Shown in pieces: positions 2,236 to 51,761 of a stretch of DNA of 52,602 nucleotides; positions within the stretch are counted from its first letter, which is position 1, and the number at the start of each line of letters is the position of its first letter. Location: positions 1 to 52,602 of IMG/VR virus record IMGVR_UViG_3300032246_000731; one strand, 5' to 3'. Source of the stretch: a virus. A program made the translations under genes and the position numbers. The notes under the pieces were generated by a model. It worked only from the letters and a program-made list of their open reading frames with translations, made no database searches and was not told the DNA's origin.

Positions 2236-2473
2236 TTTCTTCCTTTGATTGTTCGTATCGTTTAAACATACGTGTTACATCTTCCATGCGTTCGGCAAAA
2301 ATATCAGCACTGGTCTGAGATACTTTTTTCATATCGTATTCGCTAGGATAATGACGCAAACATGCTCTTGCTTCATCTTTAACAGCTTTGGGAACTCGAG
2401 GAGTAGTTAAGATTCTTAGCAAAAATCTTTGAGTTTGTACTACTGCTCGATATCTTTCATCAGGTAATGTCAT
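2222..2473 (-). CDS. BPSL0761-like small protein
   Basis: This 83-aa protein begins MTLPDERYRAVVQTQRFLLR and continues with an RHYPS segment, a pattern I associate with the BPSL0761 family of small proteins in Burkholderia and other proteobacteria, whose function is not known. It is mostly helical and charged, with no signal or membrane segment. It overlaps the genes on both sides by 14 bases, within the DpdA-like/oxidoreductase operon. The resemblance to a betaproteobacterial family is a weak host clue. The family call is from memory of the motif, not a search. Confidence 0.65.
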   Translation of the reverse strand: MTLPDERYRAVVQTQRFLLRILTTPRVPKAVKDEARACLRHYPSEYDMKKVSQTSADIFAERMEDVTRMFKRYEQSKEENDQT

Positions 2474-4163
2474 GGACGCTGGCTTCCAAATCGTCTAGTT
2501 TATCAATTGCAGATTCGTCAAAATCTACTTCGTCATCTGATTGTACAGGATCTGCATCTACTTCGTCAAATAGGTTGGCAAACATAGTACTTGCATTTAC
2601 CGTTTTCTTACCAGTGGCGCCGCGTGTACCAGGAATAGCTTGCCAAAATTTATCAAATCCGTCGATGATCGCAATAGCAGTTGCACGATCTGGCGCACTA
2701 AAAATAGCATCTACAACATCTCTAAAATAAATTCGATTAAACTTTTCCTGTACTAGCATACTTGGACATAGTCCGGCATCATATTGGCGATTAGCTTCTT
2801 GTACGCTGTTCAAATGCAACCAAACATTATGGCCCATCATAATCGCGTAGGTAAAACTATCCCAACTGGTCTTACCAACCTTACCGATTTTGTTAACATC
2901 ATTTGGCCCATAGATACAAATGTCTTTGACTTCTACACCGTCCATTAGTGGGCTTGTTGTAAAACTAGTAAAGTGTTTATCTTGTACAACTACATCTTGG
3001 AAGAGTCTGGTATCTTGACTGTACTTTTTGTCATCGAGACTTGGCAACATGCGGTAGAGCCATTTTTCTCTGTCTTTAATTTCTGTCTGAACATAAATCT
3101 GTCCATTAGCAGTAGCAAGGAACGGACTAGCACAGTCAAAGCTGATTGTAAACTTAGGATTGTGGTATTTACGAACCGCACGTTGAATATCTGTAAGCAA
3201 TAATGCCCATTCTAATTTACTTGTACCTAGAAAGTGCATCCAGTCTTGATGGCCTTCTTCTAGTAAGCCGTCAAATTTTAATGCAACAAGTCTACGTAGA
3301 ACCAAATCCACATCACACATGTTCTGGCCGCCCATAGCCCAACCGTTAAATGGCTTTTCGTATTTTGTTGGATCGCAAAAATCTTTCATCTGCTGATACC
3401 AATCTTCTGCTTGTGCGTGATTCTCACCTTGCAGAACATTTAAAAACTTACAAGCACCTGTACGATGTTTAATAAAGTATTCGTTGTTGTATTTGGTAGC
3501 ACTAACAGCTTGATCGTAACTAGCAATACCGCTGTTCTTAGCACCCACCGGACTGCGCCCAACCCATGCTGGAATATCAAGTACCATGCCATAGTCCATT
3601 AGTGCATCCATCCAAGTTAATACTTGTTCACGCTTCTTTTGTGCCGCATCCAGTTTAGCTTGATAGACTTTTACATGATCAATTTTTGTATACTTAGGAT
3701 TGCCGTTTTTATCTGTTTTAGGATGCCCAGTTGGATGCACTTGTGGAACTAGTTCAACACCTTTGGCAACCGCTTCAGCCATACGCTGTGCTACTACTGG
3801 TCCGTTAGGATCATTCCATTCGCCTTCCCACACACCTTTACCAATTTGGAATCCACCCGAGTCACCTAATACCCAACTAGTACTACGGTCTCTATTACGA
3901 AACATGTCTTCACTTGGATCAGGTTTAGTCAAATCCAAGTTGGCATGGCCTGCCGAATACAAGCAATGGTCAAAGTAAAATGCCGCATTGGGATTTAAAT
4001 AGTTCATTGCTTCAACACCCATAGGACCAAAGCTAGCAGGAATACGTGCAGGATCCACATAATTGCTGTAGCGTTGTTTGCCTATGTATGTGCTGTAAAA
4101 TCCTGACGTTGCCGGCAGGAAATATGCATAGTCTTTTTGATGTGCTGTTAGATTTTTATTCAA
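2460..4163 (-). CDS. dpdA: tRNA-guanine-transglycosylase-fold protein, DpdA-like (7-deazaguanine in DNA)
   Basis: The 567-aa protein carries the landmarks of the TGT fold: DSGGFQ at 101-106 (substrate-binding Asp), LNVLQGE at 241-247 (as TGT IVQGG), GWAMGGQ at 274-280, MHFLGTS at 309-315, and SFDCASP at 341-347 with Asp343 in the place of the TGT nucleophile. Normal TGT exchanges guanine 34 of tRNA for preQ1; the phage and bacterial paralogue DpdA inserts preQ0-type bases into DNA and protects it from restriction. At 567 aa it is much longer than bacterial TGT (about 375 aa), and the CxCxxC zinc motif appears reduced to one cysteine in LCPSML. The start codon is TTG, eight bases inside the preceding gene; no better start lies upstream. 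No preQ0-synthesis gene is visible here, so host preQ0 would be needed. TGT fold: confident; DNA substrate: inferred. Confidence 0.78.
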   Translation of the reverse strand: MNKNLTAHQKDYAYFLPATSGFYSTYIGKQRYSNYVDPARIPASFGPMGVEAMNYLNPNAAFYFDHCLYSAGHANLDLTKPDPSEDMFRNRDRSTSWVLGDSGGFQIGKGVWEGEWNDPNGPVVAQRMAEAVAKGVELVPQVHPTGHPKTDKNGNPKYTKIDHVKVYQAKLDAAQKKREQVLTWMDALMDYGMVLDIPAWVGRSPVGAKNSGIASYDQAVSATKYNNEYFIKHRTGACKFLNVLQGENHAQAEDWYQQMKDFCDPTKYEKPFNGWAMGGQNMCDVDLVLRRLVALKFDGLLEEGHQDWMHFLGTSKLEWALLLTDIQRAVRKYHNPKFTISFDCASPFLATANGQIYVQTEIKDREKWLYRMLPSLDDKKYSQDTRLFQDVVVQDKHFTSFTTSPLMDGVEVKDICIYGPNDVNKIGKVGKTSWDSFTYAIMMGHNVWLHLNSVQEANRQYDAGLCPSMLVQEKFNRIYFRDVVDAIFSAPDRATAIAIIDGFDKFWQAIPGTRGATGKKTVNASTMFANLFDEVDADPVQSDDEVDFDESAIDKLDDLEASVHDIT

Positions 4164-9112: not shown

Positions 9113-11959
9113 TTATTGTAAATCGCCGGTGTAACCAGGATTAGCGTTGCTAAATTTCTCACGACCAGTCAAACTACTGCCGTTGTCGCGAGGCCCAGTT
9201 TTATCAACTTTTTGAGCACTGTCGCCGCCGACCGTAGCGGAGCCGATTAATTCTCTTACCTCATCTTCAAGTTGACGAGTTTCGAGATCATCCGGATACA
9301 TGGCCACAAGTTGTTTGAGTAATGCATCCAATACCGATCTTATCTGTGCTTCTGCACGTTTGCGTTCTTTTTCTTTTGGATCAACTTCTATTTTTTGGTC
9401 ACCGCCTCCACCGCCACCGCCGCCTTTCTTTGAAGGATCAGTAGTTGACCCATCATCGTCGGTAGTATTACCCAAATACCCCCAAGCGGCTAGTGCGGCT
9501 AATCCGCCCCACCATAAAGCACTCTTGCCATATTTGGTTAGCAGTCCACCTGCTTTGCCTAATGCGGCAGAAAGCTTTGGAAAACTTGTGGCTAATTTTT
9601 CTTTAATGCCTGTGACATACTTAGGATCATTTGCGGCACCTCCATGCGCATCGGCCTTTGGCGATGGTGCTGGTTCCACCTTTGCCGCTGGCTTTGGGGG
9701 TAAAGCTGATTGTGGTGCAGGCTTCCATCCAGTAGCTAAATCTTTTTGAACTTCTCGTTCCAGCGATTCAACATCTATTTTTGCATTTTTATTTTGCATT
9801 AAAGAGTTTAGCTTGCCAACTTCTTCGGGGCTTGCTTTGGTCACTACACTGTTAGGACCTTGATAGTACCACTCGCCATTTACGTGAGTAAATTGTTTGC
9901 CACCCATTTCCGCAGTATTTCCGTTAGCTACTCTAATCCATAGTTTACCGTCAGATCCAGTTGCGGGTATCCAACGTTCTCCGCTTTTAAGAACAATTTC
10001 AGTAGCGTCTTTACCAAATGTTTTTTCTAAAGCCAGTAGTGCAGTACGTTCTGCACTACGTATACCAAGTTTTTCTAACCCCATAGCTAAAAATTCTAGT
10101 GTTGCATTACCTTTACCTTCGTCTAAACTTAACATACGATTACGCAAATAAGTCATGCGTTCAACGTCAGTCATGCTACTATATAAAATGGATTCTGATA
10201 CAGCCGCCGGAGTAACACCTAATAGATTCGCTATTAGATCCCCTACTTTGTTAATATCATTACCTGTTTGTGCTTTAATTTTAGCTAGTGCTTCTTGAGG
10301 AGTCTTTGCGCCTAGCTTTTGCATCAATATATTACCAGTATCATCCCCAGCTGATGTTGCTACTGCCGGTGTTGCGGCTTTAACAGGTTGTGCCGCCAAC
10401 GCCGCCGCCGCTGGCGAGTTGGGCGCGGCTACTGCTACTGCTGATGGAGCAGACGCAATCGCGGCTGATTTCGCTATCGAAGGAGCAACTGCACTTGCAT
10501 CACTTGTAGCACTTGCGGCAACTGGAGTACTAGATACTTTAGCTGGTGTTGGTTTGATACCTGCAGGCAATGCGACACCGTGTTTCTTAGCTAGGTTAAC
10601 TAGTTCAGGAGTTAATTCTCCGTCTGCACCTACATTGGCCTTAGGATCTTTTAGTTTGATTGCATCTTGTACTGTTCTAATAGCTTTTTGCTTTCTTTGA
10701 ATTTCTTTAGCTTCAACATCGGCATTGTGCGGAGTTCTGTGATATTTGTCAAGGCCCATCTCTGCACCGGTAACAATCGCACCTTTAACAAGTTGTGCCG
10801 CTACTCCGCCAGGTCCTAATGGAATAGCCACTGCACCTGCAAGTTGTCCAATAGTGTATAATACTGGACTGTTTTTCTTAGCGGCTTCAGTTTTCTTTAG
10901 TTGTCTAACTAGTTCTTCACCGTAAGTAGTACCTTTATACTTTGATAACATATAGGCCACAGCATTATCTGCGTAACCAAGTGTAAATCCAGCCGCAAAT
11001 CCGCGACCTACATCGCTAAGATCCTGGCCAATGTCTTCGTTAATGCTATATTGTACTAGATTGTCATTGGAATCATAATATAAGAATATACCAGCAGTCT
11101 TATTTGTCTGACTGTTACTGATAATATAAATTTCTTCTCTTAACTGTTCACGACCTTCAGTCATGGTCTGTGCTCGTATGCCTTTAAGTTTACCAATAGC
11201 ATCACGAATTTGACTTATTAAAACATCGCGATATTTTCTATATTCTTCATACTTGTCGATCAATGCATGGACATCCTTTTCAACATCTGGATCACCTTTG
11301 AACGATTTTAATTTTTCAATATAAACTTTTAATTTTTTATGTTCGTCTCTTGAGATAGCTTCGGCTATCTTTTGGAATTCATATCCAAATGATTCTACAA
11401 GAGATTGTGCAAGGGTACCGCGTAGATTATTTTCTTGAATTGGGGTAGCATCTGCTTGCGTAACTGCTCGCTTACTTACTAATGCTTTATCGATAATTTC
11501 CATGGACTGGTCGATCATATCGTCAGTGTTAGAAACATAACCGCTAGCTGTCTTGGCACTAACTTCATCTTTGCCCATAAACCCTAATAATGCACTAGTT
11601 CTAGCGGCCGGCGGAATTAATCCGTGAGTTTCCATGCGCTCTACTTCTCGTTGATATGCGCCGAACCATGCCCACTGCCCGTTGTTATCTACCCATTTAC
11701 CGGTAACAGGATCAAACAATCCTGGATAATCGTTTTGTCTAGCCAAATTAGCCAGTGCTTGTTTACGTTCTTCAGTATCTTTAATAGAACGGGTTGCCAT
11801 GATTTCTTTATAATGCAAACGTTCCATTAGCTCAACATACGCTTCTTTTAAAAGTTGTAGTTCTTCTGTTAAAATCTTATCAACCGCAGATGTGCTTTCT
11901 AACAATACTTGCTTGTTATCGATAGTATCTAATTTTGTAAGTAATGCTTTTAAGTCCAT
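9113..11959 (-). CDS. large virion protein, probable ejected internal protein
   Basis: A 948-aa multi-part protein. The N-terminus (MDLKALLTKLDTIDNKQVLL) is followed by LES and LTEE sites that fit a prohead-protease pattern. Residues of roughly 315-400 hold GRGFAAGFTLGYADNAVAYM and a glycine-rich stretch GQLAGAVAIPLGPGGVAA, a pattern I associate with phage internal/ejection virion proteins. Next is an Ala/Pro-rich linker (about residues 470-540), a helical middle, a predicted membrane-like segment WWGGLAALAAWGYLG, a run of eight glycines, and a charged helical tail. No enzyme motif is seen. It is the last gene of the head-cargo run that starts near 18.7 kb. Ejection and membrane insertion are inferences from composition and context. 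Confidence 0.7.
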   Translation of the reverse strand: MDLKALLTKLDTIDNKQVLLESTSAVDKILTEELQLLKEAYVELMERLHYKEIMATRSIKDTEERKQALANLARQNDYPGLFDPVTGKWVDNNGQWAWFGAYQREVERMETHGLIPPAARTSALLGFMGKDEVSAKTASGYVSNTDDMIDQSMEIIDKALVSKRAVTQADATPIQENNLRGTLAQSLVESFGYEFQKIAEAISRDEHKKLKVYIEKLKSFKGDPDVEKDVHALIDKYEEYRKYRDVLISQIRDAIGKLKGIRAQTMTEGREQLREEIYIISNSQTNKTAGIFLYYDSNDNLVQYSINEDIGQDLSDVGRGFAAGFTLGYADNAVAYMLSKYKGTTYGEELVRQLKKTEAAKKNSPVLYTIGQLAGAVAIPLGPGGVAAQLVKGAIVTGAEMGLDKYHRTPHNADVEAKEIQRKQKAIRTVQDAIKLKDPKANVGADGELTPELVNLAKKHGVALPAGIKPTPAKVSSTPVAASATSDASAVAPSIAKSAAIASAPSAVAVAAPNSPAAAALAAQPVKAATPAVATSAGDDTGNILMQKLGAKTPQEALAKIKAQTGNDINKVGDLIANLLGVTPAAVSESILYSSMTDVERMTYLRNRMLSLDEGKGNATLEFLAMGLEKLGIRSAERTALLALEKTFGKDATEIVLKSGERWIPATGSDGKLWIRVANGNTAEMGGKQFTHVNGEWYYQGPNSVVTKASPEEVGKLNSLMQNKNAKIDVESLEREVQKDLATGWKPAPQSALPPKPAAKVEPAPSPKADAHGGAANDPKYVTGIKEKLATSFPKLSAALGKAGGLLTKYGKSALWWGGLAALAAWGYLGNTTDDDGSTTDPSKKGGGGGGGGDQKIEVDPKEKERKRAEAQIRSVLDALLKQLVAMYPDDLETRQLEDEVRELIGSATVGGDSAQKVDKTGPRDNGSSLTGREKFSNANPGYTGDLQ

Positions 11960-11960
11960 T

Positions 11961-12407
11961 TTACATTCCTGCCGATTTTAATGTACTGCGTAAGAACCAT
12001 GCGTGTTTGCGATGGGCATCTTGTCTATCAGCTATGAAGTTACTTAGCCCGTGTTCGCCAGCGGCTTCTGCTAAATCGAAAACAACTTTTAAAAACTTAG
12101 CAATTTTTTCACTGTCTGCTAACAGTTCAGCGAGCATTGCCTCTGGTGCTGGAACTTCATTACTTTCTTGGATCGCACTGTATTTTAAATATGAGCTGTT
12201 ACTTCCAAGTGCATATGAACCTAACTTACGAATATTTTCTGCAAATGCATCTCGGGCATTGTATACTTCTGTATAGATAGTATTTAATAATTCATGATAC
12301 TGTGGAAAGTTTGAACCTTCTATATTCCAATGAAATGATGATGCCTTAACATAGTAGATGTTTTCACTAGCAAAGGCTATCTTCATTGCTTTAATTAATT
12401 CTTCCAT
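11961..12407 (-). CDS. dps: Dps-family ferritin-like protein
   Basis: The 148-aa protein has the four-helix Dps/mini-ferritin pattern; Dps oxidises iron with peroxide, stores it in a 12-mer shell and shields DNA. The ferroxidase ligands are all present: His26 in FHWNIEG, His38 in YHELL, and Asp53 and Glu57 in RDAFAENIR. Their spacing (12, 15 and 4) is the same as H31, H43, D58 and E62 of Listeria Dps. The C-terminal helix HRKHAWFLRSTL also fits. The ATG overlaps the stop of the preceding virion-type gene (TAATG), so it is co-expressed with head/cargo genes. Packaging in the virion is possible but unproven. Alternative: a host-protective enzyme that acts late in infection. Confidence 0.88.
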   Translation of the reverse strand: MEELIKAMKIAFASENIYYVKASSFHWNIEGSNFPQYHELLNTIYTEVYNARDAFAENIRKLGSYALGSNSSYLKYSAIQESNEVPAPEAMLAELLADSEKIAKFLKVVFDLAEAAGEHGLSNFIADRQDAHRKHAWFLRSTLKSAGM

Positions 12408-13393
12408 TATTCTACTACCTTTACATCAGCGTAGCCTTGTTTGCGATACATATTTAATGCCATGTTAACTGCGTGTCCATAACCGTGAACTGTATTAATA
12501 GTGGCCATTCTATGACGAGGTTGACCAGATTCTAAATCAGTCATTGTGCATTTAATTTTAAACTGCTCTGGATCTGGACCATTATGATATTCGTCATCTT
12601 CTCTTGGAGGACGACCAAATCCTGTGCGACTTGAATCATAATCGCGTTGATAAGCATCGCGATGTCCGTAACGACTTTCTTGCATACCTTGCTCACTTTG
12701 CAAATAATCCCAAACTGTTACCAGATAATCTTCGGCAAGACTTATTTTTTCTTCACACCATTCTGGAAGATTATCATTATCGCCTAGCATATTACCTAAG
12801 CCTTTTACAGCTCGTAGAGTAGTAAGTAAACTATTTTTGACTGATCGACCTTCTTGATCGTACTCTGCTGGGTCTTGCGATTCTTTGGCCGCAATCTTTT
12901 TCTTCGCTGTTTCAATTCCTGCCTCGCGGCGCTTAATAGCGTTCTTTGCTAGGTCTTTGTATTCGCCTTTCTTAGCGTGTGGTTCGAGATCTTTAACTTG
13001 TGCTTCTGCTTTACCTTGATATGACTGTAGTGTTTCTTTACTTAATTCGTCAACACGGTTTTCTTTGGCAAGTACACGGTCTGCAATAATTCGAGCCTGT
13101 TCGCTGATAACTTCTTTCTTTTGGCTAGCTGTTTCAGCCATTTGTTTTTCTGCTTGACCATAATATTGATAAAGCATACTGGACATTGCGGCCTTTTTAA
13201 CTTCTTTAATTGGTTTTGGTTGTGCAACTACAGGCTCTGCATAATGTTGCATGGCCATTTGAACTGGCAATGCGACCTTATGTGGATTAGAACCTTCCGT
13301 TACAACTGACAAAAATTTCTTTATGTCGTTAGAACCTTCTACAGGCTTTGTAGAAGCCGTGTCCAATGCCTGTAGAATTTTCTTCATGTCCAT
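12407..13393 (-). CDS. virion-type helical protein with W-KI-A-YL domain
   Basis: A 328-aa charged, helical protein with no known enzymatic motif. The N-terminus MDMKKILQALDTAS resembles that of the 948-aa gene two genes downstream, and a VVTE-G site near residue 32 could be a protease site. A segment near residues 210-237 (LPEWCEEKISLAEDYLVTV) is clearly related to EGWVADKISKAAEDISTV in the neighbouring 407-aa protein, showing a shared small domain. The C-terminus has a CTMTDLESG/HRMATINTV region of unknown role. It is coupled to dps by TAATG. I infer an internal head or scaffold-type protein. Confidence 0.65.
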   Translation of the reverse strand: MDMKKILQALDTASTKPVEGSNDIKKFLSVVTEGSNPHKVALPVQMAMQHYAEPVVAQPKPIKEVKKAAMSSMLYQYYGQAEKQMAETASQKKEVISEQARIIADRVLAKENRVDELSKETLQSYQGKAEAQVKDLEPHAKKGEYKDLAKNAIKRREAGIETAKKKIAAKESQDPAEYDQEGRSVKNSLLTTLRAVKGLGNMLGDNDNLPEWCEEKISLAEDYLVTVWDYLQSEQGMQESRYGHRDAYQRDYDSSRTGFGRPPREDDEYHNGPDPEQFKIKCTMTDLESGQPRHRMATINTVHGYGHAVNMALNMYRKQGYADVKVVE

Positions 13394-13397
13394 TGGA

Positions 13398-14621
13398 TTA
13401 CCCCAATAGATGTCTAGTCAATTGCTTTATACGATCAAAGTCTGTAGATTCTTTAACAATGCCTACTTTCTTTTCTTCAGCTTTGCTAACTTTTTTACCT
13501 TCTTTCTCTTCAGCTTTAACTTCTGCTTTTTCTAACCAGGCTGGTTTCTTTCCTTTGCCTTTGCCTTCTAACATCTCTTGTGCGCGAGCGATTGCCGCAC
13601 GGATTTTTTTCTTGTCGCCGTATTGTAGTTGGTCAGCTGATTCTTCTAACTTACCAGCTTTAGCCATTTTAGCCTTAACAGCACCTGCTACACGTTCACC
13701 AGCCGCCTTACTTCCATATTCTTTAGCGGCCTTTTTAGCGACTGCTTTGAATCCTGTAGTCTTGCCGTTGTTGTGTTTACCTTCGTCAGCTTCTTTAACT
13801 TCTTTCTTGGCTGGAACTTTTTTGCTTTTTCCACATGCACATGGATCTTTCTTGCAAATTGGGCACTTCTTGCCTTCTGCCATGGCCTTACCTAAGTAAG
13901 TGCCTTCGGCTGTTTTCTTTTTAGCCATTGATTTTTTAATAGCAGTGTCTTTGTTTTGTTTATATTCTTCGTCATCCGGCTCATCGATGCCATCGTGGTC
14001 CATATCGCCTTTATCTTTAGCTTCGGCAACTTTATCACGGTTATCGAATTTTTCGTTGTCTTTCATGCCCCAAGTCTTGGCACTCTTTGGTGACATTTTT
14101 TGCGCTGGAGCTTTTTCTTTCTTCTCAGCGGCTGATTGTGCTTTGGCATGGCTCTTGATACCTTTACCTGATTTTTCGTCAGCATCGCCATCATCATGGT
14201 AGCTAGTATTCTTATGAACTACACCTGTACTAGTCTTAGTTAACTCGCCAGTACGTGTTTTCTTTGTATCGCCAACTTTCATTTCACCTTTTTCTTTAGT
14301 GTCGAAAGCGTTCTCGTCCATCTTTTCAGACTTGTCTTTGGCCGCCTTTTTCTTAAGTTCTTTAACTTTTTCTTTAGCTTCTGCAAGTTTGCTAGTTAGT
14401 ATAGCACGTTTGCCTTCGCTTAGGTTAGTACTTTCAGCAATCATTTGGCTGTAATCTTTGAACTGTTTTTCATAGTTCAAATACTGATATACCGTAGAAA
14501 TATCTTCTGCGGCTTTGCTAATCTTATCAGCAACCCAACCTTCTAGTTTTTGGTTTTCGTTGATTAATTTGAATAGTTTTGCACTTTGTTGTGCTGTTTT
14601 ATAAAGATCTTGTTTGGCCAT
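13398..14621 (-). CDS. lysine/glutamate-rich virion-type protein with zinc knuckle
   Basis: The 407-aa product is extremely rich in Lys, Glu and Ala and mostly helical or disordered, as are phage core and internal head proteins. The N-terminal region (LFKLINENQKLEGWVADKI) shares a domain with the next gene. Several (I/L)xE or similar sites recur (IAES, LSEG, LEES), which would suit prohead-protease processing. A CPICKKDPCACGK segment looks like a four-cysteine zinc knuckle. The C-terminus DFDRIKQLTRHLLG is conserved-looking. I choose ATG 14621 (MAKQDLYK) because it has GGAG and a GATAAATA late promoter directly upstream; the ATG at 14675 lies before that promoter. No function is known; scaffold or cargo is inferred. 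Confidence 0.7.
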   Translation of the reverse strand: MAKQDLYKTAQQSAKLFKLINENQKLEGWVADKISKAAEDISTVYQYLNYEKQFKDYSQMIAESTNLSEGKRAILTSKLAEAKEKVKELKKKAAKDKSEKMDENAFDTKEKGEMKVGDTKKTRTGELTKTSTGVVHKNTSYHDDGDADEKSGKGIKSHAKAQSAAEKKEKAPAQKMSPKSAKTWGMKDNEKFDNRDKVAEAKDKGDMDHDGIDEPDDEEYKQNKDTAIKKSMAKKKTAEGTYLGKAMAEGKKCPICKKDPCACGKSKKVPAKKEVKEADEGKHNNGKTTGFKAVAKKAAKEYGSKAAGERVAGAVKAKMAKAGKLEESADQLQYGDKKKIRAAIARAQEMLEGKGKGKKPAWLEKAEVKAEEKEGKKVSKAEEKKVGIVKESTDFDRIKQLTRHLLG

Positions 14622-14643
14622 GTGGGACTCCGTTAACTTGTAA

Positions 14644-14651
14644 TATTTATC
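14644..14651 (-). promoter_or_regulatory. late promoter, GATAAATA
   Basis: GATAAATA on the minus strand lies 23 bases before the chosen ATG at 14621. T4 late promoters are TATAAATA. It overlaps the last codons of the small gene that ends at 14647, so late transcription can start inside the run. Confidence 0.6.
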
Positions 14652-14907
14652 TTTTGATGGCTGAGCCGCCACCAAAGATATTGCCCTTCATATCGAGGGC
14701 ATTTTTAGCTGTACCGTTTTTATTCTTTTTCTGGACTATTTTAGGAGGTTTAGGAGCCTTTGTACCAGATTTTCCTGGACTTCCTGTATAACTTTTTTTA
14801 CCGCGTTTTTTACCGATAGCAAGGTGCGGACTTACAACCGTGCCTATATTAGCCGCACTAGTAGCGCCTGCTGTAGCAGTTTCCGATATGATTTCACGTA
14901 ATCTCAT
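14647..14907 (-). CDS. small basic protein with capsid-targeting-like N-terminus
   Basis: An 86-aa protein that starts MRLREIISETATAGATSAAN and continues as a Gly/Lys/Pro-rich basic tail. The first ten residues resemble T4 internal-protein targeting peptides, with a predicted cut after IISE. The mature part would be about 77 residues, unstructured and positively charged, suited to binding DNA inside a head. The ATG overlaps the stop of the upstream gene by 4 bases. I do not know a family name. The targeting reading is inference. Confidence 0.65.
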   Translation of the reverse strand: MRLREIISETATAGATSAANIGTVVSPHLAIGKKRGKKSYTGSPGKSGTKAPKPPKIVQKKNKNGTAKNALDMKGNIFGGGSAIKR

Positions 14908-15257
14908 ACTCCGTACTTGTTCCTTTTAATTTTTGCAACTGGGCTAGTAACATCTGTATCAGCATATTCTTCGCTTGGTCCTTTTGGAACAACTACTGTT
15001 CCTTTAATACCAAGTGCAGATTCGGCATCTTTAATCTGTTGTTCTTCGACCGAATTTCCAATCCAAACAGTTGGATTATCACGTGCAGGCCCTTCAGCAG
15101 GAGTGTGTTTACCACCTGCAATCGCAATGCCTAGACGATACATATCGTAATAAGTACCTATCTGGTCATATCTTTTAGCAAAAGGCCCTGATAGTTGAAT
15201 ACCTTTACGTAAAGGTTTATCAGCGTTTGCTTCGTTTAAAAATTCTTTTGCTCTCAT
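14904..15257 (-). CDS. capsid-targeting-like peptide plus YR-GIA domain
   Basis: This 117-aa protein opens with MRAKEFLNEA, nearly the same pattern as the T4 IPI targeting peptide MKTYQEFIAEA, with a likely prohead-protease cut after LNE. The rest is one small domain containing YRLGIAIAG and ending SPVAKIKRNKYGV. The same domain and end (YRFGIALAP, SPVAGVKRNKYGI) form the C-terminus of the adenylyltransferase-like gene upstream, so the two share a module. Function is unknown. The arrangement suggests the module is a head-cargo domain. It overlaps the next gene by 4 bases. Confidence 0.7.
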   Translation of the reverse strand: MRAKEFLNEANADKPLRKGIQLSGPFAKRYDQIGTYYDMYRLGIAIAGGKHTPAEGPARDNPTVWIGNSVEEQQIKDAESALGIKGTVVVPKGPSEEYADTDVTSPVAKIKRNKYGV

Positions 15258-15258
15258 T

Positions 15259-15552
15259 TTATTTTCCTACTGGTTTTTCACCAGTCATGTAAGGCAAACT
15301 AAACCATAATTTAAACCACTCTGGAGTTCCTGGTTTAATATTATTTTGTTTCATTAATTCGCCTTTATTGCTACCAGTTACACTAATGTTGCTACCTTGA
15401 TTAGCACGATATTCGTGCAGTCTTGCTTGTCCGCCTAATCCGCCCATACCTGATAGTATTTTTAACTCTTGGACAGGATCGTCAGGTGCAAGGTAGCAGT
15501 CTTCCGGACTATCTTGATTTAAATCTTGGCTAGTAATTCTATATTGTTTCAT
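15259..15552 (-). CDS. conserved phage hypothetical protein
   Basis: A 97-aa soluble protein beginning MKQYRITSQDLNQDSPEDCY and ending PEWFKLWFSLPYMTGEKPVG. The aromatic C-terminal segment is reminiscent of small proteins I have seen next to virion genes in marine T4-like phages, but I cannot name a function. It overlaps the adenylyltransferase-like gene by 4 bases and has no targeting-like N-terminus, unlike its neighbours. It may be a structural or assembly factor for the cargo set; that is position only. Confidence 0.6.
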   Translation of the reverse strand: MKQYRITSQDLNQDSPEDCYLAPDDPVQELKILSGMGGLGGQARLHEYRANQGSNISVTGSNKGELMKQNNIKPGTPEWFKLWFSLPYMTGEKPVGK

Positions 15553-17096
15553 ATACCGTATTTATTACGTTTTACGCCAGCTACTGGACTAACTTTATTT
15601 GTACTAGGTAACTCTTTTGATTTAGCCGATGTACTAGAACTTGATCGAACACCCATTGATTTTTCTGCACCTTTTCTAATATCCGCATCCGCATCTGTAT
15701 AATCAATCATGGCGAACGAATTTGCCAACGCACTTTTCTTAGCCATATCAGTGAAATCTGGACTTGGCGCAAGGGCAATGCCAAATCGATAAGCAGTATA
15801 TGAATCGCTATTATTTAAACTATCATAAACAGTCATACCAGGAATCGCATCTTTCTCAAACTGCTTTAATGATTCTCTAGCTTTAGCTTCGTACAGTTCT
15901 TCTAATGCTTCGCTAACTCTCTTGTGCTTCATTGCGTTGCTTAATTGTTTAGTACCTTTGTCAGCTTGATTAAATTCTTTAGCAACTGATTGTTTAATTC
16001 CTAACTTCTTTGCAAATTTAGGATCATGTGCGGCCGCGGCCATAGTACGTGCTTGTTTTTCAGTTGTACTTCTTTCGTTAATTGATTCGTTTGGTACACA
16101 GTTGTTTACACGGATGCCGCCTTTAACTTTAGTACCTTCTTTGTGTTTGCCCTTCCAGCATTTAGGATCTAGTCTTTGTTTTATTTCTGATAAAGTTTGA
16201 TCGTCTTTTTTAGGTTCTTCTTTAGGCTTCATACGATCGGCGATGCCTTGTAATTCACGACGCATGTGTTCACGTTCATTACTTGCACTAGATTTAGCAC
16301 GTTCACGATCCCATGCACGTTGTAGTTTAACTGCCGCACTCATACGTTTTGTTTCAGCTAACTCTTGTGCTGGCCCTTTTGTTTTAGTTTGTTTCATAGC
16401 AATCTTCTCAGCTTTTTGTTTTTCTTTCTCAGCTCGCTGTTGTTCTTTTTCAGCTTTAGCCGCATCCTTAGCGGCCTGAGCTTCACGATGCGGTATTAAA
16501 TAATGTGCCACTAGATCAAAGAACTTGTGGCCAGCAACCAATGTATCAGCTGATACTCCAGCCGCTTGCGCAAAACCATGCCTGTCCCCGGCCGCAACAG
16601 CATTGCGTAATGCTGTAGCACTACTAATACGTAAATGCTTTTTAGCTACATCAATACTATCAAACGGAAGTTTAATATCTTGAAAAGAATATTCACCGTG
16701 ATTTGATACTTGTCCATTAGACTTTAATAGTCCAGGAACAACATATGGCTCGTCCGTGATAACAAGTAATGTGATTGGTAATGTACGTCCAGGTACGCCG
16801 CCGTATTTTTTAAATACATAGGTAGCAAGTGTCCACCAGCTTTGTTCGGCTACAAGGTGATCTTCTACTTCAGGCATGATTGCCTTCATTGCTTCAATTT
16901 TAACTTCAAACGGTAACGGATCTTCTGGACCAACTGTACTTTTGTTAGTACCCACATACCATTGGTCTGCTACCTGTGAAGCAGTTTCCCATGCATGTTT
17001 ATGACCTTTGTGCGGAGGATTAAACCGCCCGAAGATAATTGCTACGGTTTGCGGCATTGCAGATTCTGTTAAATGATATGCTTTCAATTTTTCCAC
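15549..17096 (-). CDS. NMN-adenylyltransferase-like cytidylyltransferase-fold protein with long tail
   Basis: The 515-aa protein has a nucleotidyltransferase domain in residues about 13-205: GRFNPPHKGH is the phosphate-binding GxFxPxHxGH motif and RISSATALR the ISSTxxR motif, as in NMN adenylyltransferases (NAD synthesis) and relatives. A Lys/Glu/Gln coiled coil (about 205-250) follows, then segments including KGGIRVNNCVPNES and QARTMAAAAHDPKFAKK, and finally the YRFGIALAP module ending SPVAGVKRNKYGI. The start is GTG at 17096, or TTG three codons later, which has better spacing from AGGGTGG. Either keeps the LTE-S site before the enzyme domain. The stop of the upstream gene overlaps. Enzyme fold: confident; packaging into the head: inferred. 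Confidence 0.75.
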   Translation of the reverse strand: MEKLKAYHLTESAMPQTVAIIFGRFNPPHKGHKHAWETASQVADQWYVGTNKSTVGPEDPLPFEVKIEAMKAIMPEVEDHLVAEQSWWTLATYVFKKYGGVPGRTLPITLLVITDEPYVVPGLLKSNGQVSNHGEYSFQDIKLPFDSIDVAKKHLRISSATALRNAVAAGDRHGFAQAAGVSADTLVAGHKFFDLVAHYLIPHREAQAAKDAAKAEKEQQRAEKEKQKAEKIAMKQTKTKGPAQELAETKRMSAAVKLQRAWDRERAKSSASNEREHMRRELQGIADRMKPKEEPKKDDQTLSEIKQRLDPKCWKGKHKEGTKVKGGIRVNNCVPNESINERSTTEKQARTMAAAAHDPKFAKKLGIKQSVAKEFNQADKGTKQLSNAMKHKRVSEALEELYEAKARESLKQFEKDAIPGMTVYDSLNNSDSYTAYRFGIALAPSPDFTDMAKKSALANSFAMIDYTDADADIRKGAEKSMGVRSSSSTSAKSKELPSTNKVSPVAGVKRNKYGI

Positions 17097-18298
17097 CCTG
17101 GTGCAACAATTTTCATATTGCCGTGTTTATGATGAGGTTGTGCGTAGCGAACATAACCTTCGCTGTTAGTTGCCCATACATCTGCATCATGTGTATCGTT
17201 AGTTATTTTGTATATGTCGTGTTTAATATCTCTAATAACTTTCATAGCATGAAATAATTCATTCAAAGCGCCGCCTGTCTGTGCATCTAATTGTTCGATC
17301 GCCTGACGTTTAGGCAATGAAACTCTTTCTTTACCATTTGCCAATGGCTCTTTCATCCAATCAAAGAATACTCGCGCATTGATCTGTTCAAACGTACCAC
17401 CTGCATTTTTTTGATTTAAAAATGGATAAAAGATTCCATTCTTATCTGTATGTGAAACACTGCTGACAAACTGATCAATTTTTTGACCATGTTGCTCTAG
17501 CCATGTTTGTTTTGTTTTTACATCTTTTTTAGCAGTAAGCTCTTCGCCGCTTTTTGCTTGAGCAGGTGCCTGACTGTTATAAATTGGATCTAACACAATT
17601 AATCCAGGAGTTCCATTAAATTCGCTAAAGTCGTCTTTAGGTTGTTGTGCAGAGTCAGGAGCACCAAAGGTATCAAATGTACCGTGTGCGGCTATCATAA
17701 GTTTTGCACCGGCAATTCTTTTACCTAAATCACTGGATTGACTAACATGGTATTCTGTAGCACTATGTGGATTAGGATGCATATTGTATGTACCGCTAGA
17801 ATCCATTTTAGGCTTAGTAGCTGGCATAAAAATTGCATCAGCATACACGAACCCAACAAAATCTTTTGGAGTGGCCGCGTCGAATACCGGATATAAACTA
17901 CTAAACTCGCTAGCAAAGCGTTGACGCTCTGGAGTTATCTCTTGTCCTTTAGCACCTTCACCGCTTTTGTTTAAGATAAAGTTTTTTACAGCTTCTGGAC
18001 TGGTAAAGTCGTCCATCGTTGTGCCAGTGTTGCGGCCACCTTTACCCCAACCGTTATGTCCTGCTAGTATTAACGGACCTCCTGCAACTTCTCTACCCCA
18101 ATAAATTTGAGGATTACCGTCCCATTTAAAACGTAGTTGTTTAGGTTCGGCTTTAATCTCGTCAAAGTGTTGTAGTGCTTCGAGTATTCCGCTTACACCA
18201 TGAAAGATTACAAAATGTTCTGGATGGTTGAAAGCTCTGCCTAGTTGTGGCGCTTTTGCTTGGGCAACTTCTCGAATAAACAGCTCTCTTAGTAACAC
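17084..18298 (-). CDS. DUF6267-like protein with ligase/capping-type KxDG motif
   Basis: The 404-aa product starts MLLRELFIREV (GTG start directly after the upstream TAA), which resembles the N-terminus of the T4 packaged ADP-ribosyltransferase Alt, MELITELFDE. Around residues 56-66 it has RFKWDGNPQIYWGRE. KWDG matches motif I (KxDG) of covalent nucleotidyltransferases such as DNA/RNA ligases, where the Lys is adenylated. Later segments VGFVYADAIF and GLIVLDPIYN could be the beta-strands of that fold. I associate this type with DUF6267 of T4-like phages. A true ligase or a degenerate nucleotide-binding protein are both possible. It is followed by the adenylyltransferase-like gene. Confidence 0.65.
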   Translation of the reverse strand: MLLRELFIREVAQAKAPQLGRAFNHPEHFVIFHGVSGILEALQHFDEIKAEPKQLRFKWDGNPQIYWGREVAGGPLILAGHNGWGKGGRNTGTTMDDFTSPEAVKNFILNKSGEGAKGQEITPERQRFASEFSSLYPVFDAATPKDFVGFVYADAIFMPATKPKMDSSGTYNMHPNPHSATEYHVSQSSDLGKRIAGAKLMIAAHGTFDTFGAPDSAQQPKDDFSEFNGTPGLIVLDPIYNSQAPAQAKSGEELTAKKDVKTKQTWLEQHGQKIDQFVSSVSHTDKNGIFYPFLNQKNAGGTFEQINARVFFDWMKEPLANGKERVSLPKRQAIEQLDAQTGGALNELFHAMKVIRDIKHDIYKITNDTHDADVWATNSEGYVRYAQPHHKHGNMKIVAPGWKN

Positions 18299-18673
18299 TT
18301 AGTTTGCCTCGTAATGTCCGTCTTGGATTTTTCTAATTTCGTCATCTAACAAGTGCTTGGATACTTCGTCTAATAATTTTTTATCCGGTTCCGGCGGCAG
18401 TTGTTTGATATTAAATTTGTCAATATATTGATTATAACATTCTTTGACTGCTTTGTCAAAAAGCGCAACATCAACATCTTTACCAGAATCTAGTTGATCT
18501 TTGCATGACATAATTGCTGGGAATGTATGTCTACGATATGCATTATCGTCGTGATGCATAAAAAACATCAAATCATCTTTTAGATCAAATCCTAACCCGT
18601 GGGGATCGTTAGGATCCTTATCTGGTTTGCTTGGATTAAAATCTAGGCTTTCACAAAGTTCATTTATACGCAT
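18299..18673 (-). CDS. small protein with capsid-targeting-like N-terminus
   Basis: A 124-aa protein beginning MRINELCESLDF, again short, basic-hydrophobic and ending in an LxE-S site. The remainder is acidic and helical (for example DLKDDLMFFMHHDDNAYRR) with no motif I recognise. It is the first gene of the cargo run after a terminator and a GATAAATA late promoter at 18721-18728. Its stop abuts the GTG start of the next gene with no gap. Function is unknown. Confidence 0.65.
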   Translation of the reverse strand: MRINELCESLDFNPSKPDKDPNDPHGLGFDLKDDLMFFMHHDDNAYRRHTFPAIMSCKDQLDSGKDVDVALFDKAVKECYNQYIDKFNIKQLPPEPDKKLLDEVSKHLLDDEIRKIQDGHYEAN

Positions 18674-25183: not shown

Positions 25184-25813
25184 TTATCCTTGCAGTACGT
25201 GTATTGCGTGTGCGTAATGCTTTTGACGATCTTCCAAACCCAATGTTCCGCCGTTAATACGTTTGGTCATTGTTAAGATGTCACCTGAATCTGCATATTG
25301 ATTCAAATTATTTGCTTCCCAGAACCAAGCCGCACTTTGTACACAACCTTCGAAAGTTGTTAAGTGTTCGCTTGCTTCGTCTAGTGTCTGCTCCGTACTA
25401 GCCGCATAACGACTGTAATTGTCCTTGCCAGTTAACTGGATAAGTCCTCTTCCACAAAACTTCCAACCATCGCCTGACTCTTCTGGGCCATTACCCATAC
25501 GGTTAGCGTAAGCTCTGTTGGCAATTTTTTCTGGTTGTTGAGCATACTGACGAGCTACGTCAATGCTAGGAAAGTAACGTGGCCAAACTTTACAAAGACT
25601 TTCTGCTTTGTAGTTTAAGTTTTCTTTAATAGCACGGAAACCGCCACTTTCGTGTGCGCATTGTGCTAGAAATGCAGATACCCGTTGTACTGTATTAATA
25701 TCATAGTCTGGAAGAATTTCACAAAGTGATTCGTACCAATGATCCAAGTTAGGATTTCCTGGAATGATTTGTGCTAATTTTTCCTTAGTAAAGTTAAATT
25801 CAAAATCCGCCAT
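25184..25813 (-). CDS. GH19 endolysin (chitinase-like peptidoglycan hydrolase)
   Basis: The 209-aa protein is a compact glycoside hydrolase family 19 domain, which in phages cleaves peptidoglycan. Catalytic Glu55 sits in CAHESGGF and the second Glu64 in IKENLNYKAE. The lysozyme-like RYFPS, KFCGRGLIQLTGKDNY and TKRINGGTLGLEDR motifs follow. No signal peptide is present, so it needs the holin for release. It overlaps the upstream gene by 14 bases and starts the lysis cassette. Confidence 0.93.
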   Translation of the reverse strand: MADFEFNFTKEKLAQIIPGNPNLDHWYESLCEILPDYDINTVQRVSAFLAQCAHESGGFRAIKENLNYKAESLCKVWPRYFPSIDVARQYAQQPEKIANRAYANRMGNGPEESGDGWKFCGRGLIQLTGKDNYSRYAASTEQTLDEASEHLTTFEGCVQSAAWFWEANNLNQYADSGDILTMTKRINGGTLGLEDRQKHYAHAIHVLQG

Positions 25814-26543
25814 GCGCTTTCTCCAATATTAAAGCATAATTTTCTTTTTCTAATATAAACTTAGAACCTATTTTGTTTATATTATAGTTGCCAATGTATT
25901 TTGTTAGATAGATAGTTTCAGCCATGCCGTTACCTTCTAACATAATAGGGCCTTTGGTCTGTGTATGCATATCGTGTTTAGATCCAAAATCTACAATTTT
26001 AAATGCGATAGGATCTTTATGTATACGTTTAAATTGCAACGTTTCGCCTAGTAACTTGATATCGTCTACAAAACTATTGCTAAAAAATTCGCTGAAATTA
26101 TCAAGCCCTTGACTTTCAATTTTTAATTTGTATGAATCTGGATCCTGGGGAACTTTAGCTTCTAAGTTTTCCTTAGTAGCCGCCAAGCTCTTAAATTCTT
26201 TATGCCATCTGAATCTAAATTTATCGATACCGGTTAGCTTAGTTAACCCGTCTAACATTTCGATTATCTGATCTGTTATATGTTTGTTACGTTCTATTTC
26301 AACAAATACACGATATTTTCCATCGTCTAACTCACCGGTTGTAGTTTCAGCGTCCATAATAAATTCGTAACCCATCTCTAAGAAATTTTCTAAATCTTCT
26401 GCAGGGTCTTTCGAATCCACAACAAATGTTAAAACAACAATGTCTTGATCATTGCCAATTTTACTTTTATAGTTGTCAATCTCAAAAACATTTTTAACTA
26501 AGTTTCTGAGATCTTTTTCTCTAAGTGCTTCGTTTATATTCAT
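25800..26543 (-). CDS. conserved T4-like phage protein of unknown function
   Basis: A 247-aa protein starting MNINEALREKDLRNLVKNVF. It is acidic, alpha/beta, with no signal or membrane part and no enzymatic motif I can see. The N-terminal pattern is one I remember from proteins of marine T4-like phages but without an assigned function. It sits between an unknown gene (2-base gap) and the endolysin (14-base overlap), so it is late and may belong to virion assembly. Confidence 0.7.
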   Translation of the reverse strand: MNINEALREKDLRNLVKNVFEIDNYKSKIGNDQDIVVLTFVVDSKDPAEDLENFLEMGYEFIMDAETTTGELDDGKYRVFVEIERNKHITDQIIEMLDGLTKLTGIDKFRFRWHKEFKSLAATKENLEAKVPQDPDSYKLKIESQGLDNFSEFFSNSFVDDIKLLGETLQFKRIHKDPIAFKIVDFGSKHDMHTQTKGPIMLEGNGMAETIYLTKYIGNYNINKIGSKFILEKENYALILEKAHGGF

Positions 26544-37598: not shown

Positions 37599-38132
37599 TT
37601 AATAAGTGCCGCCCAAGGCCACACGACGCCATGTGTTTGTCGATATACAAATATACATATAGGTAGAATCGTAGCTGATTTGCCCAACTGTACCGGTAGC
37701 ATTTGATGCTTTGGTACCAGTTGGAATAACGAGCCCGTTTGGTACAGTAACAACACCAGCGCCATTTATAGTCAAACTGCCAGCATATCCGGGCACGTTG
37801 AAACTCATAGTGCTGGCTGTTGCGTTGTAAGGAACATAGCCACTTGTATTGTAATTTAATGAATCATTAGCAATACCAAATGCTTCATTACCTGTACCTA
37901 TACCAAATACAGCACCAGTAGTACCATTTGCAATCTTTAGTGTATAATTTGCTCCACCGGTAGTATCTGTAATGGTTTGACCTGTTGTAGACAGTGCGAC
38001 ATAATTATCTACATCGAATCCCGTAGAATATAACTCAGTAAAGTTGGCATTAATTTTGTTAAATGCCGTGCGCAACGGATCACCGTTTTTACTGTTGGCC
38101 GCTGTGCCTATGTTGATAGTTTGTTTAGCCAT
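37599..38132 (-). CDS. fibre-type protein with shared anchor domain
   Basis: A 177-aa protein starting with INIGTAANSKNGDPLRTAF and KINANFTELY, the anchor domain of the other fibre genes, followed by a Gly/Thr/Asn-rich beta region. The C-terminus (GTVGQISYDSTYMYICISTN) is a short beta knob that resembles ends of small phage fibres. The ATG shares one base with the stop of the giant protein gene (TAATG). It is likely a short tail-fibre component. Confidence 0.75.
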   Translation of the reverse strand: MAKQTINIGTAANSKNGDPLRTAFNKINANFTELYSTGFDVDNYVALSTTGQTITDTTGGANYTLKIANGTTGAVFGIGTGNEAFGIANDSLNYNTSGYVPYNATASTMSFNVPGYAGSLTINGAGVVTVPNGLVIPTGTKASNATGTVGQISYDSTYMYICISTNTWRRVALGGTY

Positions 38133-41100
38133 TACATTCTCCCTACAGCAACTTGGATGACTCCAGCTTCGCCGTTGTCTTTATTTTCTAATGCCTTACC
38201 AATAATGCTACCTAGTTTTGGATCAGTAGCTTTAACAGCATAACCAGGAGTACTACTTGTTGTTAGCAAATCACCTTTACGTACACGACCCACTACCTTG
38301 ACTGGCACACGACCTTGTAGAGCAATCAAGTTCTTAAGTCCCGGACATGCCGCATACATTGAGTACGCCGCATTGTCTGAAACAACACCTGCTACTCTTG
38401 TATCGTTCATTTCGCCGGTAACTGTTACTTCTTTTTCACCGCCAAACACTAGAACAGTACCAACTTCATACTCTTCGTCGCCTTCATAATATTCTGCCAA
38501 GTCACCTGCATAGGTAGCTTGTAGTTTACTTGCACCGACTAGTGTATACACACCAGTCATTGGACAGTCTAAATCTTCGCGGCCTGTTGTAATACTGCGT
38601 GTAGTAAATGTACCAACACTGCAATTTAATGAACTACCGCTTGCTAACGACCATCTACCAGTTAACGTACCGTCTGTAGTGTTGCCACCGCTAGTCAACG
38701 ATGTTACAGTAATACTAGCACCTGTTTGACTAAAATCATGCGAGCCATAGTGTGTAGTAGTCGCTGTTGAACTACCGAGACTCTGCATAAACTTAACGTT
38801 ACCAGGTGTGTAAAATTCTAAAGTTGTGCTGTTTATTTGTAAAATGTTTCCACTTGACGGCAAGCCAGCAATCTTAATACCTTTAACATCAATCAATCCA
38901 GCACCGGTTGTTTTAACTATACTATCGTTACCACCGCTAGTGCTAATTGGTATACAATCGTATGCTTTAACTCCAGTTCTTATTACAGCACCTGTTGAAC
39001 TAGTTGATGTTGGTATATCTCCATTACGGATACCGTCACCGTTATTAACCATTGCTGTTGTTGTAGTCACGCTTACTGCCGCATTGCTTCCACTAATGTT
39101 AGCTAACACACTATTTGGTGCTATCCAAGACATCTTAGCAACTGCGATACCGTCACTTGTCGATGTAGCAGTTTTCAATGATACCCAACCGTCAGTAACA
39201 GTAAGTATATTATTGTCAAAACTTGCAAGGCCACTGGCCGCTTGTTTTTGTTTTGCTGTACCTGTTGGAGCTGACGCACGGGAAGTAGCTATAGTCAACA
39301 GTAATTTGCTTTGTTGTATATCAGCAGTTGAACTTACTTTGCCATCATTGATTGAACCATCTCTAGTAAATGTCATTGTGCCGCTTGGTGATGTACCAAC
39401 AGCACTGATATTAACAATAACAGTATTGACAATTCCAGTGACAACTTGGCCACTACTGAATCCAGTACCGCTAAGTACCATACCTCTAACAATACCAGTT
39501 GTGCTGGCTAATGTTAATGGAATAGTTGAACCGCCGGTAACTGTAGTTCCGCTTGCTTGGAAATTATTAATAACATACGTTCCTGCTACACCAATACCTG
39601 TCTTGTAATCAACAATAACTGTATTTGCCGCAACAGTTCCGCCTGTTAATATCATACCTGGAACAATAGTAATTGTCGGAGCACCTGTAACAGTTAATAC
39701 ATTACCATCAATAGTTCCAGTCAACGAACCAGCAATAACACTTGTACCGCCCGATGTATATGCGGTAGTAACTACAGCACCTTGTATAGTACTGAGCAAG
39801 GTGGAACCGTCCCAACTAATGTTTACGTCACTAGTTGTATCAAATGAAGCATTGGTCCATGCACCAGTTCCAAGTGCATTATTTGTATTTGATGTACCGT
39901 AAACTAATATTTGTCCGTTAATAACACTTGAACCCATGCGTTTAGCAGAGTCTTTAACTTTATAGATACTATCAGTATCATTAACAGTTGTGTCAACATA
40001 AAACTTGTTAGTTGCATCATTTTGTAATAGCGGTGTACCTAAACTACCGATATTAAATCCGCCCATTGACATGTTGCCCTTCATTGGCAACTGTCCACTT
40101 AAAGCCATAAATCCCGGGCCAATCAATGCTGTAGCAGGGGTACTTGCTCCAGAATGTTGTAGTCCTAGACGATTATCAATATAACCACGTGTGGCACTTT
40201 GTGTTGGTACTGTATCAGACGCATCGTTGGTCATTGAACTATCAGTTGAGAATTCACTAACTGTAACACCGCGCTTAAATCCTAAACCGTCCAAGTTACT
40301 CAACGCAATTGATGCTGAGAATGTAACAGTACCAGTACCTTGGTCAACTGTGAAGAAGCGACCCACACGGAAGATACCGTTTTGGTCAGTGGTCACATAG
40401 AACACACGACCCACTGTTTCTTCCAATACTTCTTTTGTCTGGTCTGCTTTTTGGTATGGATTACCGTAAATCTGATATGGATAGTTAGTAGTGTTGTAAC
40501 CGCCTGTACCGATATCCAACAAGTCATGAGCTGAACAACGACAAGTGCTGATGCGTGTAGTAATCTGCGCGGCCGCACCTGCTTGATAACCTGCACGTAA
40601 TGGTGTAGTAACTGTACTACTCATTGGACGACTGATACCAGTAGTTGATGGTGTAATGGTAGTTGCACCAGTTCCATATTGAGTGAAGAATGTTATGTTA
40701 CCAGTAGGAGTACTGCTTGGAGCACTACTTAATGTTAGTGTCACTCCATCAATGTCAACCGCAGTAACTTTTTGATCTGCAATAAATCCAGGACCGCGTA
40801 CTAACATGCCTACACTAATGCCAGTAGTACCGCTTACTTTTAATGTAACGCCAGTTGATCCGCTTGGATTATAAGTCGCAACTATTGCACTTTCTGGATC
40901 TATGGTATAGGCAAGAGTTATACTTGTAGTAGAACTAGCAACCACTTGTACATATTTGTTGTAGAGAGTAGTTGAGTTGCCAGCCATTAGATAATAAGTA
41001 TCAACTACAGGCGCAGTTGATTGTGTTGGTATTTCAAATGTTGTATACCAAGGGCCACTAACGCTACTGTATGTCCAAAAACCTAAAACTCCAAATGGTG

Positions 41101-51437: not shown

Positions 51438-51761
51438 TTAAACTCCGAAGCTAGAACCGCAACCGCACGTTGTTTGTGCGTTAGGGTTTTTAATTGTAAA
51501 AGAACTGCCCATTAGCTCTTCTTTATAGTCTATTTCTGCACCTGTTAGATATTGCATACTCATTGCATCTACAAGTACTTTAAATTCATCTAGAGGAATT
51601 TCAAAATCGTCCTCGTTTGCTACTTCATCGAACGTAAATCCATAGCTAAATCCGCTACAGCCACCGCCTTGTACAAATGTACGTAATGATAAATTTGGGT
51701 TACCTTCTTCGTAAAGAAGATCTTTGATTTTTGTTTTTGCTGATGCAGAGATTGTGATCAC
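51438..51761 (-). CDS. A-type iron-sulfur carrier (IscA/ErpA family)
   Basis: A 107-aa protein with the A-type carrier pattern, which delivers Fe-S clusters to target proteins. The three cluster-binding cysteines are Cys35 in [10 protein letters not shown] and Cys99 and Cys101 in TTCGCGSSF, at the positions of E. coli Isc[18 protein letters not shown] is also typical. The start is GTG at 51761 with GAGGG upstream and a GATAAATA late promoter. It lies four bases before the giant fibre gene, an odd place. Phage A-type carriers are known in some marine phages; here late expression suggests a use in virion-related or late host metabolism. Confidence 0.95.

Follow-up and report, generated by a model that had tools for sequence, protein, structure and literature searches.

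A predicted operon of tagged internal head proteins, with ligase-like and NMN adenylyltransferase-like enzymes, in an uncultured jumbo phage

Why should a row of adjacent phage genes that encode unrelated proteins begin with much the same short peptide? The question is raised by IMGVR_UViG_3300032246_000731, a linear virus sequence from IMG/VR that was analysed as a 52.6-kb fragment (positions 1 to 52,602; hereafter the window). At 9113-18673 its minus strand carries ten genes (the cassette) separated by gaps of -4 to 25 nt, and therefore forming one operon; five of the ten encode a short N-terminal peptide of 8-10 residues (up to 12 with a GTG start) that ends in (L/I)xE. The capsid-targeting sequence of phage T4 is likewise an N-terminal peptide, of 10-19 residues, cut by the gp21 protease after (L/I)xE (PMC9026906, PMC12373910). 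We consider it highly probable that the operon encodes internal head proteins of a T4-related jumbo phage, targeted by this tag, cut by a Peptidase S77 prohead protease and delivered with the DNA. The mechanism is known from the T4 capsid-targeting sequences and the cassette is a variant thereof; new are a tagged operon that contains enzymes in uncultured jumbo phages, the link between tag and enzymes (including those of cyanophages), the swapping of tags, the size of the tagged repertoire and the capsid-arm mimic. The ten genes are:

18299..18673, minus strand: 124-residue acidic protein (isoelectric point, pI, 4.9), function unassigned; tag MRINELCE-S.
17084..18298, minus strand: 404-residue DUF6267 protein, predicted ligase-like covalent nucleotidyltransferase; GTG start; tag MLLRELFIRE-V; Pfam 2.9e-14.
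15549..17096, minus strand: 512/515-residue NMN adenylyltransferase (NMNAT)-like protein of the HIGH superfamily; Pfam CTP_transf_like 3.8e-6; tag (M or MEKL)KAYHLTE-S from a GTG (15549-17096) or TTG (17087) start.
15259..15552, minus strand: 97-residue conserved protein; untagged (MKQYRITSQDLNQDS).
14904..15257, minus strand: 117-residue protein; tag MRAKEFLNE-A, with E9 invariant in 24 sequences.
14647..14907, minus strand: 86-residue very basic protein (pI 11.0); tag MRLREIISE-T, then an apparent copy of the capsid N-terminal arm (TATAGATSAANIGTV).
13398..14621, minus strand: 407-residue basic protein; conserved helical-looking segment (EGWVADKISKAAEDISTVYQYL); untagged from its ATG start.
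12407..13393, minus strand: 328-residue protein with a longer pro-segment; predicted cut VVTE33-G34.
11961..12407, minus strand: Dps-like ferritin of 148 residues; untagged; Pfam Ferritin 1.3e-20.
9113..11959, minus strand: 948-residue protein; pro-segment MDLKALLTKLDTIDNKQVLLE21-S.

An earlier sequence-only reading of this DNA had likened the five tagged N-termini to T4 targeting peptides and pointed to two further internal sites, QVLLE21-S in the 948-residue protein and VVTE33-G (with V at P3) in the 328-residue protein; all are present. The motif occurs in 5/10 cassette genes as opposed to 1/38 of those outside it (Fisher p = 0.0008), and shuffled cassettes yielded a mean of 1.0 match (P = 0.001 for the observed five). 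The sole loose match outside the cassette, MNINEALRE-K, opens the protein at 25800-26543, a distant relative of RaK2-type virion structural proteins (phrog_13138). A stricter pattern, set once the tags had been inspected, was found in 87 of 165 cassette genes and in 6 of 350 others across a comparison set of 79 related loci (p = 3e-44, a value that overstates independence, as the 165 genes include orthologues); shuffled sequences gave a mean of 1.1 and a maximum of 5 matches, and the six outside matches mostly look like further tagged genes. Position P3, left free by the search pattern, is I, L or V in 121 of the 128 distinct tags with a two-residue gap, and P1' is A, N, S, T or G in 89 of the same tags, which fits the expectation for T4 gp21. 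Because the loose motif is met in about 9% of all genes of the 223-kb relative G019 and of cyanophage S-SCSM1, the peptides could be read as chance matches or as ordinary parts of each fold. We regard this as very improbable in view of the clustering and of these P3 and P1' preferences, as well as the tag swapping, the low-confidence stretch ahead of the DUF6267 fold and the cut site shared with the capsid protein that are described below.

The tag varies independently of the protein that bears it. NMNAT-like proteins of different phages begin with MKTYHLTE-S, MKLRQLFE-A, MKLRELFE-S or MNLRELFE-A, and in three loci the protein is tagless and begins from a TTG start, as (M)SQVAIIFGRFNPPH or (M)NQVAIIFGRFNPPH, only a few residues ahead of the first strand. 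DUF6267 proteins carry MLLRELFxxE, MRAFEFLxE-A or MRLRELFE-A across relatives, and relatives of the 124-residue protein carry MRI[NKQR][ED]L[CLF]E. The question whether tags belong to the folded domain could be addressed with the AlphaFold model of the DUF6267 protein (predicted local distance difference test, pLDDT, 87), in which the ordered domain starts around residue 21, after mostly low-confidence residues 1-13. One enzyme family under unrelated tags, together with this model, indicates at the level of sequence and prediction that the tag is portable and placed directly before the fold. Conversely, the same tag type is carried by non-homologous mature proteins, both in the cassette and in relatives, where tagged proteins include superoxide dismutase, GNAT, amidoligase, dCMP deaminase, sigma-70 region 4 and lytic domains; some of the tags on lytic-domain proteins may be chance matches on tail or lysis proteins. 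Two iron/manganese superoxide dismutases from two phages are candidate packaged enzymes, one in G019 (G019:C1:213498-214058, equal to L245:13498-14058) with the tag-like N-terminus MYNFIKHITLNE-G and one at L071:10690-11223 with MRARDFLTE-S.

The protease that would remove such tags is found in the lineage of the window. The window DNA polymerase is up to 95% identical to that of uncultured contigs and 85-87% identical to those of G019, G022 and G023, the nearest cultured phages being Sinorhizobium phage Phosso (49% identity) and Agrobacterium phage Atu_ph07 (45%); a nucleotide search of cultured phages with the window gave zero matches, as did tblastn of cultured phages with the DUF6267 and 948-residue proteins. 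A gene for Peptidase S77, the T4-type prohead protease, is present in G019, G020, G022 and G023, and in G019, G022 and G023 it adjoins the scaffold and major capsid genes. The capsid protein of these relatives reads KYLAE-SATAGATSAGNVATL, and the 86-residue protein of the window ISE-TATAGATSAANIGTV, with the same site and the same sequence after it (in longer form, ENTRKYLAE-SATAGATSAGNVATLNRVILP in G019 and ISE-TATAGATSAANIGTVV in the window). We infer that the capsid protein is cut at the KYLAE site. In the fetched loci the signature E-x-A-[ST]-x-G-[AS]-T-S was found in 20 distinct contexts, and E precedes A by two positions in 20/20. Its only carriers were capsid proteins, where it follows E41, small basic proteins, where it comes straight after the tag, and longer proteins of cassette type, where it is internal.

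Among the window proteins, the 86-residue protein matched the G019 capsid arm best (score 58, as against 43 for the best shuffle and 37 for the next protein). With the proteins of G019 itself, a cassette protein was best, barely over shuffles (57 vs 53). The capsid arm of S-SCSM1 is different (GPTAGFDPVL), and there it was most closely matched by ORF97 (83 vs 51), a small protein listed among those of the virion. From these three matches, the small protein appears to be a lineage-specific copy of the capsid arm of its own phage, perhaps with a role such as docking on the shell; no description of an arm-copying small protein was found in the literature searched. Such a copy would also suit a purely structural account, in which the packaged and cut proteins belong to the assembly core, like T4 gp67, gp68 and IPIII, and serve head building or DNA packing instead of being delivered effectors. 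The 407- and 328-residue proteins, which lack an enzyme domain, a nearby Dps that could condense DNA, and the influence of T4 IPIII itself on head assembly (PMC9026906) are in keeping with that account, which we nevertheless think rather unlikely given the conserved catalytic residues of the DUF6267 and NMNAT-like proteins, the many kinds of tagged enzymes in relatives and the entry of tagged T4 proteins into the cell (PMC12373910).

What, then, might the two enzymes be? In the DUF6267 protein, K58xDG61 (motif I), E380-G381-x-V383 (motif IV) and K396 (motif V) are invariant in 30 sequences, and nearly all of the top 20 Foldseek matches in the PDB are DNA or RNA ligases or ligase complexes; the protein is predicted to be ligase-like from its motifs, with weak structural support. 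The NMNAT-like protein of the window contains the GRFxPxHxGH and ISSxxxxR motifs of NMN adenylyltransferase (as GRFNPPHKGH and ISSATALR after the tag, followed by a CW..NCVP module and a C-terminal SPVAGVKRNKYGI tail), and its family profile best matched the archaeal enzyme MJ0541 (1f9a, E = 4e-4), with NadR and 2qjt weaker. Both identities, proposed in the sequence-only reading, hold at motif level, the latter as a predicted enzyme. The two genes are close neighbours from jumbo phages to cyanophages. A pattern search of the fetched loci for fusions between them was empty, and viral Foldseek matches named cytidyltransferase-like are the sole hint of such fusions. In the distant relatives at L218:760-2619, L219:766-2622 and L220:697-2649, DUF6267 stands behind a second nucleotidyltransferase-like domain (GS...SGDLD), and two of these fusions begin MLLRELF, with an INE-G site near residue 18. 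The extra domain gave a weak NTP_transf_2 match in one relative (E = 0.009, below the cut-off) and is reminiscent of the RNA-ligase-associated Pol-beta enzymes reported in jumbo phages (PMC7824862). The annotated DNA ligases beside the polymerase of Phosso were considered as DUF6267 counterparts and rejected, being unlike DUF6267; the larger one looks, by eye, like an NAD-dependent ligase. Our preferred prediction for the two enzymes is a role in nucleic-acid repair or NAD+ supply at the start of infection.

Others have used mass spectrometry to detect homologues of the NMNAT-like enzyme in cyanophage virions. According to the available parts of three reports, the cytidylyltransferase T4-GC190 was found in S-SM1 virions by Sullivan et al. 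2010 (PMC3037559), NMNAT ORF91 was detected in S-SCSM1 virions by mass spectrometry in 2022 with contamination left open, its neighbours ORF89, 90, 92 and 93 also being marked as virion proteins (PMC9602691), and S-CREM2 virions hold the cytidylyltransferase ORF154 (PMC10665884); as far as those parts extend, the evidence concerns protein presence and not new N-termini. Both examined cyanophage proteins carry a tag, as in the window (MKKFSAFLNE-A in S-SM1 gp190, MKSFLQFLKE-A in S-SCSM1 ORF91), and further tagged forms occur in P-SSM7, S-WAM1, ME01 and Melnitz. In their available parts, the S-SM1 and S-SCSM1 virion reports make no mention of a targeting tag (PMC3037559, PMC9602691), nor the S-CREM2 report of capsid targeting (PMC10665884), and our literature search found no paper joining a capsid-targeting tag with an NMNAT-like virion enzyme. 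In GAP32, Paride, Hallingskeid and Sf-CH11 the homologues are short, tagless proteins that stand alone and presumably work in the infected cell, as they would if the tag were real and the enzymes acted mainly late, as ordinary cytoplasmic enzymes of which a fraction enters heads. That account seems improbable to us, since the tag is retained in most members of the lineage despite its changing sequence and cyanophage members have repeatedly been detected in virions.

Several observations weigh against our interpretation of the cassette as head cargo. Cyanophage relatives of DUF6267 (GC71), like the stand-alone NMNAT-like proteins, are without tags, and the individual Foldseek matches of DUF6267 to ligases are not significant (best E 0.09, template modelling score about 0.2). 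The prohead protease, which the sequence-only reading had proposed to locate, was found in relatives and not in the window, the protease and capsid genes both lying outside the 52.6-kb fragment and being known from relatives. In G019 the motif in its bare form, M.{3,9}[LI]xE, was counted 17 times as against 10.9±3 in shuffles, and a similar motif did not separate virion proteins of S-SCSM1 (8/46) from its other genes (22/252, p = 0.10). The bare motif was therefore dropped as a genome-wide predictor, being discriminating neither in G019 nor for the virion proteins of S-SCSM1 detected by mass spectrometry; the signal lies in clustered position, and the bare motif alone is weak.

Other features of the cassette are less uniform. 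The description of its small proteins as basic suits the 86-residue protein and not the acidic 124-residue one. Dps as tagged cargo found no backing: it is untagged in the window, and 43 distinct N-termini were found among relatives, all of those listed being untagged. The open reading frame of 425 residues is probably better taken as the untagged 407-residue protein from the ATG at 14621. This protein (13398-14621) and the 328-residue protein (12407-13393), neither with a short tag, have a segment in common (LPEWCEEKISLAEDYLVTVWDYL / EGWVADKISKAAEDISTVYQYL), possibly a core-binding helix; relatives of the latter show IVTE, IINE or IIQE at the VVTE33 position. The 117-residue protein, whose AlphaFold model was poor (pLDDT 63) and not used, ends in SPVAKIKRNKYGV, in common with the NMNAT-like protein. 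This tail, SPVA(K/G)(I/V)KRNKYG(V/I) at the C-termini of the proteins at 14904-15257 and 15549-17096, has counterparts of the SPVA...KRNKYG type at the ends of 52 non-redundant proteins of the fetched loci, 36 of them tagged. A module at residues ~302-341 of the window NMNAT-like protein (DPKCWKGKHKEGTKVKGGIRVNNCVPNE; 403 related IMG/VR stretches) recurs in many otherwise unlike phage proteins, about half of those fetched being tagged; Melnitz gp18 holds a similar module, and the window copy had no match in Pfam. A back-translated peptide search of IMG/VR with the 948-residue protein was empty; homologues did appear among the gene calls of neighbouring loci.

Elsewhere in the window, a single open reading frame of 4433 residues (38132-51433), within the tail-gene region, takes up a quarter of the fragment. 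By eye, a DSGGFQ motif at 2460-4163 suggests a tRNA-guanine transglycosylase or a DpdA-like enzyme (DNA or tRNA base modification), and the product of 51438-51761, from a GTG start, resembles an A-type iron-sulfur carrier.

How far does the cassette depart from known systems? Like T4 Ip1, Ip2, Ip3 and Alt, its tagged proteins combine a short, presumably removable N-terminal peptide ending in (L/I)xE with unrelated bodies and clustered genes, and relatives in the lineage encode an S77 protease; in length the tags come close to the shortest of T4, and a small residue follows E. The T4 cargo consists of the Ip proteins, which are small anti-restriction inhibitors, and Alt, an ADP-ribosyltransferase (PMC9026906, PMC12373910), whereas the proposed cargo of the window combines ligase-like and NMNAT-like enzymes with a capsid-arm mimic in a single jumbo-phage operon that adjoins the replication genes; no Pfam or PHROG match to an Alt-like ADP-ribosyltransferase domain was obtained in the cassette. 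S-SM1 gp190, S-SCSM1 ORF91 and S-CREM2 ORF154 belong to a homologous enzyme family and are likewise next to replication genes, although gp190 is only ~21% identical to the window NMNAT-like domain. Inner-body proteins of phiKZ type are protease-cut, ejected head proteins of jumbo phages, as is proposed for the cassette, and a short KQAR..MAA segment is common to the cassette and phiKZ-like proteins (a search with this pattern, probably too strict, was empty). The phiKZ-type prohead cut rule is SxE, unlike the P3 preference of window-type tags, and the head genes of the relatives are T4-like. Polyvalent phage proteins are likewise predicted to be packaged and injected, but are defined by many domains per polypeptide and not by a removable N-terminal tag (PMC5512222). 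The phrase "undescribed effector system" in the sequence-only reading was too strong, as the tagged T4 proteins are classical and the NMNAT-like enzyme in cyanophage virions has been published since 2010; a T4 review had also already proposed capsid targeting as a route for T4-like phages to load diverse proteins (PMC9026906).

Sequence shows that the tags exist, that they are portable, that their site recurs in the capsid protein and that relatives encode the protease, and others have shown homologues to be present in virions; we infer that in this phage the proteins are cut, packaged and ejected, as well as the roles of its enzymes. The targeting peptide on at least five cassette proteins would dock each on the prohead core, and the S77 protease would remove it after (L/I)xE, so that the mature protein stays in the filled head and would leave it with the DNA at infection; the two intact-looking enzymes, ligase-like and NMNAT-like, would most probably serve in nucleic-acid repair or in keeping up NAD+ until phage genes are expressed. 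More tentatively, and with less than even confidence, we suggest that an exchangeable label on dozens of unrelated proteins in a large group of uncultured T4-related jumbo phages marks a preloaded repair and counter-defence kit, active before the first phage transcript, and that a small basic protein, by mimicking the capsid N-terminal arm, lines the shell. If the cassette does encode delivered head proteins, the proteins that T4-related phages bring into the cell, now identified phage by phage with mass spectrometry, would become predictable from a short sequence rule combined with gene clustering, and the recurrence of NMNAT-like enzymes in cyanophage virions, where contamination stayed open, would be explained. 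According to a 2026 review, Tad1 is the only anti-defence protein described in jumbo phages (PMC13282480), and a readable list of delivered candidates would therefore be useful.

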